From Branchiostoma floridae (taxonomy: Eukaryota > Chordata > Leptocardii > Amphioxiformes > Branchiostomatidae), in assembly GCF_000003815.2 (NCBI RefSeq), contig NC_049985.1, positions 5,869,713-5,933,712 of the forward strand: DNA of 64,000 nucleotides. The letters are read 5' to 3'. A program made the position numbers and the translations under genes. Below, one piece after another: positions 23,807 to 26,409 of the stretch. The notes beneath the pieces are model-generated. The model was not told where the DNA came from. It was given only the letters and a program-made list of their open reading frames with translations, and did no database searches. Every line of letters starts with the position of its first letter. The stretch's first letter is position 1.

Positions 23807-26409
23807 ATGGCGACTGCTTCTTTCTCGGAGAAAGTCAGCGACGACTTCATCCAGTGTACGATCTGTTGCTACAACTTCAAGAAGCCGAAGGTTCTTCCTT
23901 GCTTGCACACCTTTTGTGCGCACTGTCTGCGAGAATGGGCCCAGAAGAACGACGGAGACACCTTTCCGTGTCCTATTTGTCGTGAGCAAGTTTCATTGCC
24001 CGAAAATGGCGTCGAGGGTCTAAAGGACAACTTTTTCCTCGCTAGCCTGGTGAAAGCCGTGACGGAGCACCACAAGGTTCGCCACGGGCAGGATGGCCTC
24101 CTCTGTACCACTTGTGACGAAGGGAAGCCAGCCACGTCCAGGTGTTCAGACTGTGCTGAGTTTCTGTGTGAGAGTTGTGAGTTGGCACATCGTCTTCAGA
24201 GAGCTACCAAGGGCCACACCCTCTTCACGTTTGAGGAACTGAAGACGGGCAAATATGACGGTGTCTTCAGGACAAGGAAAGTTCCGCCGTGCCCCAAACA
24301 CTCCGGAGAAATCCTGAAGCTCTACTGTAGGACATGCGAGACTCCGATATGCAACGAATGTGCCTTGTTCGAACACAGGGACTTACAACTATTACACAAC
24401 ATAACGCGCATTGAAGAGGTGGCCACTGAGAAAAGAAAGACAATCTTAGATCTCACACCACAATGCCAGGCCCAAGTGCAATTCTTCCAACGGACAGAAG
24501 AAGTTCAGAACCGCTTGAAGGAACAACTTCAGAAAAATACAGAGTTGGCTCGTCAGAACGTCCACCAAACTGTACAAACAATGGTTGCCCTGGTAAAGGA
24601 AGAAGGAGAACGACTTCTAGCTTGCATCGATACAGAAGAAACATCCAGGAAGAAACAGATCGAAGCAGAGATAGAGGGAGCGCAGATCGGTCTGGCGAGC
24701 GCCAAAAGCACCTGTGAGTTTGCAGAAACTCTAGCTCGGGAGGGAGGCGACTACGAAGTAGCGTCTTTCTCACAGGACATGGCAACGAGACTGATTGACT
24801 TGACGAAACCACCTATCGGCACGGTGGACTTGGGACTGGTAAACATTCCTGTTGATTACTCGGTTATGGGGCGCAAGTTTGAACAAAACATCCCGCCACC
24901 TGGCCAATACGTAATGCTAGAATCAACAGAGAGAGAACTACGTTCTTTGCTGAAAGGAGCATCCCCAAGTCAGACGAGCAAACATGGTAAGTACAAGTAG
25001 TAACGTTAGGGCGTTCATCATGTGAAACAGGATATGGTAACGTCGCTTGTTGGTCATCTATTCTTCTGTGAGGTCATCTATTGTTTCGATAGACTTCAGC
25101 TCATATCAATGATGTACCCTTTGGTAGTAAGTTCGCTCTTATGTTCGCTTCTGCTACAACAGAATACTGCAGAGAAGCGATTGTATATAGTGTATAAACG
25201 TCGTGGCGAACTACTATCCGGATGTGTAGTCTACTTACAAGAACATTCTATCATTCTCCTCACCAGGAGTGTCACCAGCGTCCTCTGCATCTGGAAACTT
25301 GGACAAAGAAGACACGTGTCCAATTTGTCTCCGTTACTTCACTGGGCCTGTAACAACCACACGTTGTAAGCACAAGTTCTGTGCTGACTGCCTGGACAAT
25401 GCCTTGAAAATTTCTGGTCAGTGTCTTGTCTGCAAGTCTGTGATTGGACAATTGAAGGGCAACCAACCCCCGGGGACAATGACACATCGCATTGACTACC
25501 TACACTCCCTTCCTGGCTATGAATACATGAACTGTCGCTCAATTGCAACAATCGAAATCCACTACTACTTCCCTGATGGTACACAAGGGGTATGTAATGT
25601 AAATTTGATTTAGGGTGACTCAAAATTTCTAATTTGTTTTGAAATATATATTTTTTTACAACAAACCTGTTCATATTGGCCAAAATTTGATTTAAGGTGT
25701 TTCATATGTCAGTCTTGACGTGTAATTGCCACATATAACTAAATTTGTTTTGGATGCATCAATGCACAGGGACTTTTGTTTTGGACAAGACATACAGCTG
25801 TTTTTCTTTTGCAGTATTCTAACACATATATTATTAAGTCATTGAATGAATAGATTGAAGCCTTGATAGTTGATATTCTCATTTCAGCCAGAGCATCCAA
25901 ATCCCGGGAAGCCCTACACTGGAACATCACGGACAGCCTACCTTCCAGACAATGCGGAGGGCCGTGAGGTTCTCAGGCTGCTGAAGCAAGCCTTTGACAG
26001 CCGTCTAGTCTTCACCATTGGTACATCAGCAACTACAGGATTGACTGATACTGTGGTGTGGAATGGTATCCCTCACAAAACCAGCAAGTATGGTGGACCT
26101 AACAGGTAACATGCTATATATCCATTGCTTTTCCAATCCTTAATTAATAGGTGAGCCATTAAGGGGGTTGCAAGTTTTGAATCCAATGAGTCTACTGAAT
26201 GAGTCTGTACCGAATCTGAAATGTTAGCACTTACTTACATTTACAGCATTTACAGAACATATTGAAGTAATAAATAATTTTTGTCATGCAGGGAAACATT
26301 GTAACTAAAAGATATTTATTGTTTTCACTTTTTTTGCAGCTACGGCTACCCTGATCCTCAGTATTTGGCAACAGTGAAGGAGCAACTAGCTGCAAAGGGC
26401 ATCAAGTAG
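23807..26409 (+). CDS. TRIM-Deltex fusion E3 ligase (RING-BB-BB-CC-RING-DTC)
   Basis: Exons 23807-24986, 25267-25589, 25888-26105 and 26340-26409; all GT-AG, phases 1, 0 and 2 match, total 1791 nt, 596 aa, stop TAG. Exon 1 is a close paralogue of TRIM gene 1: RING 17-58, two B-boxes, coiled coil. Exon 2 adds a second RING (C411-C449: [17 protein letters not shown]) and the start of a Deltex C-terminal domain; exons 3-4 complete it ([29 protein letters not shown]). The DTC is closest in style to DTX3/DTX3L (KTSKYGGP before GYPDP). Deltex proteins ubiquitylate ADP-ribosylated targets or ADP-ribose itself. Oddities: the usual H-H-K-T reads P563-H564-K-T, and the position matching the catalytic Glu of Deltex proteins is Q589. 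AATAAA at 26875-26880 gives a plausible 3' end. Two adjacent genes remain possible, but exon 2 has no start of its own. Confidence 0.88.
25130..25235. mobile_element. Fragment of a foldback element
   Basis: The words 'gttcgcttctgc', 'gagaagcgattgt' and 'gcgaactactatccggatg' match the foldback at about 27905-28085. It lies in the intron joining the TRIM exon to the RING-DTC exons, close to the acceptor at 25266. Confidence 0.6.

Follow-up and report, generated by a model that had tools for sequence, protein, structure and literature searches.

A predicted TRIM-type lancelet gene with a DTX3L-type RING-DTC module whose catalytic pair is replaced

We analyzed a 64,000-nucleotide stretch of the genome of the lancelet Branchiostoma floridae (assembly GCF_000003815.2, contig NC_049985.1, positions 5,869,713 to 5,933,712 of the forward strand; hereafter the window), which carries on its + strand, at positions 23807-26409, a gene that reads in frame from a TRIM (RBCC) module into a second RING and a Deltex DTC domain. 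The same arrangement recurs at several places in the genome, sequence comparisons point to purifying selection on both halves, and the residues aligned to the catalytic histidine and glutamate of the DTC domain are replaced in the window gene. We propose that the gene probably encodes a TRIM-type ubiquitin ligase that has acquired, by phase-1 splicing, a RING-DTC module from a DTX3L-type gene, and whose degenerate DTC domain would serve targeting or regulation.

The window gene comprises four exons with GT-AG introns throughout and is predicted to encode a protein of 596 amino acids. Exon 1 (23807-24986), the TRIM exon that we refer to as WIN2, opens with an ATG, contributes 393 codons plus one base that cover RING, B-box 1, B-box 2 and a region of coiled-coil homology, and ends in a phase-1 GTAAGT donor (AACATG/GTAAGTAC, with the slash marking the exon boundary). 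Following an intron of 280 bp (24987-25266), exon 2 (25267-25589) starts at a pyrimidine-rich phase-1 acceptor, TCTATCATTCTCCTCACCAG/G, and encodes the second RING and the start of the DTC domain; its frame is open from 25230 only, no start codon precedes the RING, and the first in-frame methionine is residue 465, C-terminal of the second RING. Exon 3 (25888-26105) encodes the central DTC domain, and exon 4 (26340-26409) its end together with the stop codon (26407-26409). An earlier note on this DNA had described a TRIM exon with a phase-1 donor, followed by a RING-DTC exon that opens in phase 1 without a start codon of its own, and had placed the end of the gene at 26409; the two junctions, the position of the first methionine and the stop codon bear this out. 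Several splice combinations read through, with differences of a few residues at the later junctions, and we chose the one whose junctions match those of the relative at locus L011.

Pfam places a RING at residues 17-58 of the spliced protein, B-boxes at 99-138 and 158-200, a second RING at 409-450 and, straight after it, a full-length DTC domain at 457-595 (profile positions 1-133 of 133, E 6.8e-55). The zinc-ligand pattern of the first RING is intact (17-59), with a linchpin Arg59, and the second RING has eight zinc ligands in pattern with a single His, and a Lys at the linchpin position after the last CxxC (CLVCK). The coiled coil is assigned solely by homology to TRIM3 (161-332) and TRIM28/KAP1 (17-246). 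Among solved structures, the N-terminal part is nearest to TRIM3 (8amr), TRIM2 (8ams) and TRIM28 (KAP1, 6h3a), and the C-terminal part to DTX3L, DTX2 and DTX1, with 3pg6 as the best match of the DTC domain (1.7e-45). With RING and B-boxes in order and the coiled coil by homology, the gene belongs to the TRIM family by domain content; it is equally a Deltex gene by domain content, not by catalytic residues. Its Deltex half is of the DTX3L type, as it lacks the two-residue AR insertion of DTX1/DTX2, keeps Tyr575 (encoded in exon 4, within SYGYPDP) at the position of the DTX3L Y719 pocket, and has a single-His RING. The RING-DTC half recognized in the earlier note is present, with its type corrected to DTX3L. 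An identity as a WWE/Notch-type Deltex (DTX1/2/4 subgroup) was rejected because the protein has no Pfam match to WWE at E 0.001. KH_DTX3L likewise has no match at this threshold, and the protein contains neither Macro nor KH.

The DTC domain departs from its relatives at the catalytic residues. DTX2 and DTX3L are reported to depend on a His/Glu pair for ubiquitylation of ADP-ribose, and mutants of either protein in these residues to be impaired. Mutants of DTX2 in either H582 or E608 are reported to be impaired in ubiquitylation of NAD+, markedly so for E608Q (PMC7615817), the DTX3L counterparts of this pair are given as H707 and E733 (PMC10810221, PMC11460948), and the pair is described as strictly conserved among DTX proteins (PMC7615817, PMC10810221). 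The two numbering schemes fall on the same alignment columns, where the window protein has Pro563 (exon 3) for the His and Gln589 (exon 4) for the Glu. A genome search gave 39 DTC matches, which we grouped into 20 loci, and the catalytic residues were tabulated for 17 of these (all except L024, L026 and L027). The His is kept in 15 of the 17 loci, the exceptions being the window gene and L025; the Glu is kept in 13 of 16, the exceptions being the window gene and L025 (both Gln) and the damaged L009 (Asp). Of the loci not tabulated, L026 carries Asp in this column and L024 carries Glu. Of 41 DTC columns that are invariant in 11 other loci, the window gene departs from four, through Asp-to-Gly, His-to-Pro, Arg-to-Thr and Glu-to-Gln changes, and L025 shares three of these; the corresponding counts are zero to two for each of the 11 loci when left out in turn, five for L009 and six for L025. 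The probability that four random breaks would hit both catalytic columns is 0.0073. Judged from these alignments, the DTC domain of the window gene no longer has the residues on which ADP-ribose ubiquitylation depends, and is conserved elsewhere. Because a part in ligand binding is ascribed to His582 of DTX2 as well (PMC7615817), binding of ADP-ribose by the window DTC domain is probably weakened too, and this weakens the earlier suggestion that the protein joins TRIM self-assembly to ADP-ribose recognition.

The window gene is one of a family in the same genome. A TRIM search, in which 105 of 470 first-look candidates were scored, making the TRIM totals a lower bound, returned 13 loci that are at least 67% identical to the window TRIM exon, with 38% for the next best among the matches listed. 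We examined roughly 8 kb around each DTC locus. At 7 of the 20 (the window gene, L009, L012, L015, L022, L025 and L027), a same-strand TRIM exon belonging to this subfamily lies upstream; L023 has a divergent TRIM (35%) upstream of its DTC domain, and the other 12 have no TRIM within the stretch examined. Seen from the TRIM side, seven of the 13 loci have a DTC domain downstream, and two more (WIN1, the sister exon within the window, and L032a) each stand first in a tandem pair; in the stretches examined, L030 has KH-Macro and no DTC, and L028, L029 and L031 have neither.

Two of these relatives bear on whether the halves belong together. L012 yields a complete model of 803 amino acids with the order TRIM-KH_DTX3L-RING-DTC, containing two RINGs, B-boxes and both catalytic residues (Pfam KH_DTX3L 8.8e-7, above the cut-off; DTC 8.3e-58), and it shares about 75% identity with the window gene over the TRIM part. 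At L025 (C19, about 3.02 Mb), the RBCC region runs into the DTC start in one open, intronless frame, with the second RING missing. KH_DTX3L also exceeds the Pfam cut-off in L015 and has matches at seven places in the genome, and the TRIM-bearing L022 has tblastn matches to KH-Macro and DTC. The phase of the junction is likewise repeated: WIN1, WIN2 and the TRIM exons of L009, L012, L015 and L022 all have a phase-1 donor at their end, as does that of L023 (a weak GTAGTT), and the partner exons of L009, L012, L015, L022 and L023 have phase-1 acceptors, reading ATTTACAG/CTRCATCA in the first four. The TRIM exon of L029 also has a phase-1 GTAAGT; the end of the L030 TRIM exon has other donor matches. 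The in-frame splice, the single frame of L025 and the complete model of L012 uphold the proposal of one gene with TRIM, second RING and DTC; the gene described in the earlier note is one member of the family. We considered L027 (C7:21.81 Mb) as a second single-frame case of TRIM plus second RING and set it aside (phase-0 donors, no in-frame ATG by eye, no fourth exon matched). We also rejected the idea that the window gene is a haplotype duplicate of its C19 sister, as the two lie on different contigs (C7 and C19) and their TRIM synonymous divergence (dS) of about 0.34 was judged too high for alleles.

The closest relative of the window RING-DTC module is L011 (G000:C7:24364000-24373900, minus strand), with DNA identities of 84.6% over window positions 25250-25599 and 86.7% over 25876-26108. 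At L011, a Macro domain (9.3e-27), a RING and the DTC start lie in a single open exon, which also has a weak KH_DTX3L match (0.0037) below the cut-off; genes of this type would bring a PARP9-like reader part and a DTX3L-like writer part together in a single protein. Similar Macro/RING/DTC tblastn matches of DTX3L type were seen at L010, L013, L016-L023 and L026. The homology to L011 starts at 25250, 17 bp before the exon 2 acceptor. A dispersed repeat in intron 1 (25124-25224; at least 44 genome matches listed, some of them parts of one copy) ends about 25 bp before this point, and may have had a role in the capture of the module.

Traces of an older arrangement may be preserved further upstream. 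The WIN1 exon (18916-20131, + strand) encodes a protein 84% identical to that of WIN2 and ends in a phase-1 donor; by eye, its end including the donor (20047-20265) contains an apparent tandem duplication of about 108 bp. Between the two TRIM exons lies an orphan exon-like stretch (21564-21790, + strand; end uncertain, frame open to 21901) with a phase-1-compatible acceptor. A portion of it (window 21658-21703 = L011 5622-5667) matches the DTX3L-type exon of L011 in its N-terminal part. This stretch is possibly the former partner of WIN1, and because it lies between both TRIM exons and matches the N-terminal part of L011, it suggests an ancestral TRIM-KH-Macro-RING-DTC gene that was split by the second TRIM exon. 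In the same interval, window positions 20725-21210 match the inverted arms of an insert at L015 (75-79% identity) and probably belong to a related mobile element.

Trees of the two halves are broadly congruent. In the DTC tree, which like the 88-codon comparison given here covers 14 loci (L018, L019 and L020 were also dropped for a different or unseen exon end), WIN2 and L025 group against the rest with a support of 100, and WIN2, L025 and L011 with a support of 96 (values from the raw Newick output). In the TRIM tree, WIN1, WIN2, L025 and L032a form one clade (98, midpoint-rooted printout) apart from the cluster at C7:24.6 Mb. L011 and L013 are nested within these DTC clades and have no TRIM in the stretch examined, so TRIM was either lost there or gained more than once. 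The ratio of nonsynonymous to synonymous divergence (dN/dS) ranges from 0.19 to 0.30 across ten pairwise comparisons, nine between TRIM exons and one between RING-DTC modules (0.192 for the window gene and L011, 198 codons). For an 88-codon part of the DTC domain it is 0.107 between the window gene and L011 and 0.472 between the window gene and L025, from which we take L025 to be less constrained. For a neutral window branch holding half of the synonymous divergence from L011, the expected number of nonsynonymous changes is 86, compared with 36 observed for the two branches combined (P about 1e-9); if the share is set to a quarter, the same test is not significant (P 0.075). In the DTC tree, about four fifths of the path from L011 to the window gene lie on the window side. 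Together, these values argue for purifying selection on both the TRIM and the RING-DTC halves.

Several observations weigh against a functional TRIM-DTC fusion. The TRIM exon of L009 contains a stop and a frameshift, L015 carries an insert in the DTC start (oriented locus 4829-8464) with 1.07-kb inverted ends that are 92% alike, L022 has an insert with inverted ends in the TRIM RING (oriented locus about 659-4286), and L027 shows phase-0 donors only, by the pattern used, and no clear start. Thus, of the seven TRIM-DTC loci, only the window gene, L012 and L025 are open throughout; L027 is doubtful and the other three are clearly damaged. Donors of other phases lie close to several TRIM exon ends, and a phase-1 donor was not matched in L028, L031 and L032a. 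In B-box 2 of the window gene (24374-24397), there are two extra residues between the last histidines relative to WIN1. The trees conflict in that WIN2 pairs with WIN1 in the TRIM tree and with L025 in the DTC tree, which suggests gene conversion or a separate tandem duplication. Since the final 17 bases of intron 1 match L011 coding sequence, the exon 2 acceptor appears to derive from sequence that was once coding, in a copy truncated at its 5' end, as would also be expected from the chance fusion of a decaying fragment. Finally, co-assembly and all of the biochemistry of the window protein are things that we infer from sequence.

The acceptor leads to the rival that we regard as unlikely rather than far-fetched, namely that the fusion is real and non-functional: a 5'-truncated KH-Macro-RING-DTC duplicate came to lie behind a TRIM exon and is now in decay, with catalytic loss as an early sign. 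The end of the L011 homology 17 bp short of the acceptor and near a dispersed repeat, the missing catalytic residues, the damage at L009, L015 and L022, and the state of L025, which would be further along with its second RING gone and a DTC dN/dS of 0.47 relative to the window gene, all fit such decay. They have to be set against four window exons free of stops and frameshifts, a second RING that retains its zinc ligands, the low dN/dS relative to L011 in both the RING-DTC module and the 88-codon DTC part, and the deficit of nonsynonymous changes, which is strong for a half share of the divergence and not significant for a quarter share. A different objection, which we consider improbable, is that two neighboring genes have been merged on paper, with a TRIM gene ending in intron 1 and a DTX3L-like gene whose first exon is unseen. 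Some novel architectures of lancelets are reported to be false merges (Banyai and Patthy, PMC4967905), the frame of exon 1, if unspliced, meets a stop codon at 24998-25000, 11 bases beyond the donor, and most DTC loci (12 of 20) have no TRIM in the stretch examined. However, no in-frame methionine precedes the RING in exon 2, the exons are just 280 bp apart, and relatives match the phase-1 junction. Because the TRIM-DTC order is repeated in several genome regions (7 of 20 loci), L012 gives a complete model and L025 reads from TRIM into the DTC start without leaving its frame, the objection is answered, if indirectly. Very improbable, in our view, is a third possibility, in which the RING-DTC exons receive their TRIM part from the upstream WIN1 exon, either in place of WIN2 or in addition to it. 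The WIN1 donor at 20131 is phase-compatible and the product would still be TRIM-RING-DTC, but WIN2 intervenes with a nearer donor, and WIN1 has a partner-like stretch of its own with a phase-1-compatible acceptor at 21564.

In the favored reading of a TRIM-type ligase with a degenerate DTC domain, the coiled coil and B-boxes would assemble dimers and higher oligomers, and the TRIM RING with its linchpin Arg would carry out ordinary lysine ubiquitylation. The Deltex-type second RING, with its Lys linchpin, could still recruit ubiquitin-charged E2 (E2~Ub), and the DTC domain would serve as a non-catalytic surface for targeting or regulation. The window protein may also co-assemble with catalytic TRIM-DTX3L relatives such as L012 and modulate them; mixed oligomers are plausible because the TRIM parts are about 75% identical and L012 keeps the catalytic pair. 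A role in immunity or DNA damage, which the earlier note had raised, may be envisaged. More tentatively, and on balance we doubt it, this lancelet might have built an ADP-ribose/ubiquitin system in one chain, with TRIM placed before a DTX3L-type writer (intact in L012, with Macro at L022-like copies), from which the window gene and its C19 sister branched as pseudoenzymes that keep the DTC fold without its catalytic pair and regulate the active copies, or compete with them, by way of the TRIM coiled coils that both have.

Upstream of the TRIM ATG, a block at 23772-23806 (+ strand) is the probable promoter or 5' untranslated region, with TGACGTCA at -35 and AGGAAGT at -23. We take the first to be a putative CRE-like and the second a putative ETS-like element. 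Among 12 TRIM loci compared, TGA[C/T]GTCA occurs at -35/-36 in seven (WIN2, L012, L015, L022, L025, L029 and L030), sits at -55 in WIN1, and is absent upstream of L009, L028, L031 and L032a; AGGAAGT occurs at -21 to -24 in eight and is absent in L009, L028, L030 and L031. Downstream of the gene, the minus strand at 27120-32080 carries tandem pieces of alpha/beta-hydrolase-like genes (Pfam Abhydrolase_1 4e-13 for 31794-32078), of which the stretches at 27123 and 29354 have no Pfam match at E 0.001. A ubiquitin-coding stretch (33414-33640; Pfam ubiquitin 2e-29) lies about 7 kb downstream of the ligase gene.

Compared with known systems, the window gene resembles DTX3L in the structural match, AR gap and single-His RING noted above and in the KH_DTX3L domain of its relatives L012 and L015. 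It differs from DTX3L in its TRIM N-terminus, the lack of KH, the Pro/Gln at the catalytic positions, and a Lys linchpin in the second RING, given as Gln for human DTX3L (PMC7615817); this Lys after the last CxxC is a likeness to DTX1/2/4. Its N-terminal half resembles TRIM2/TRIM3 and TRIM28 in the order of RING, B-boxes and coiled-coil homology and in the linchpin Arg. L011 (Macro, RING, DTC start) and L022 (KH-Macro, DTC) combine parts that PARP9 and DTX3L bring separately, whereas these are described as two proteins in vertebrates (PMC10955461), L022 is interrupted by its insert, and the window gene has no Macro or KH. The C-terminal classes given for human TRIM proteins include SPRY, NHL, FN3, COS, PHD-BROMO, MATH, ARF, EXOIII and TM (PMC2533329). 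The main text of that paper does not contain the word Deltex, and its abstract does not name lancelet among the species. A TRIM-Deltex combination is not listed in what these sources say of TRIM C-terminal domains (PMC2533329) or of Deltex architecture (PMC8424196), and none was found by title or start of abstract among the open-access literature matches listed, so the combination may already be annotated in a preprint, a subscription paper or a lancelet protein database. A very large number of novel domain pairs, with a bias to exons of phase 1-1, is reported for lancelets (PMC4284660, PMC12373286), so a fusion of this kind would be expected in them, and the phase-1 joining seen here is in line with that bias (PMC4284660). 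The main texts of PMC4284660, PMC6071037 and PMC2575513 do not contain TRIM, nor those of PMC4284660 and PMC2575513 Deltex.

These findings would bear on three questions. To the debate on the reality of domain shuffling in lancelets, the window gene adds a case whose support includes evidence independent of splicing. A natural loss of the catalytic pair on a conserved DTC domain would separate ADP-ribose ubiquitylation from other roles of the domain, for which the literature cited here has so far drawn on laboratory mutants. Moreover, DTX3L reportedly has to oligomerize in order to read mono-ADP-ribosylation efficiently, and the D2 domain through which it does so is reported to date from the emergence of amniotes (PMC10955461). 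Chordate DTX3L-type ligases with a TRIM assembly module would represent an independent route to oligomerization, and would offer a direct test of why Deltex ligases oligomerize.

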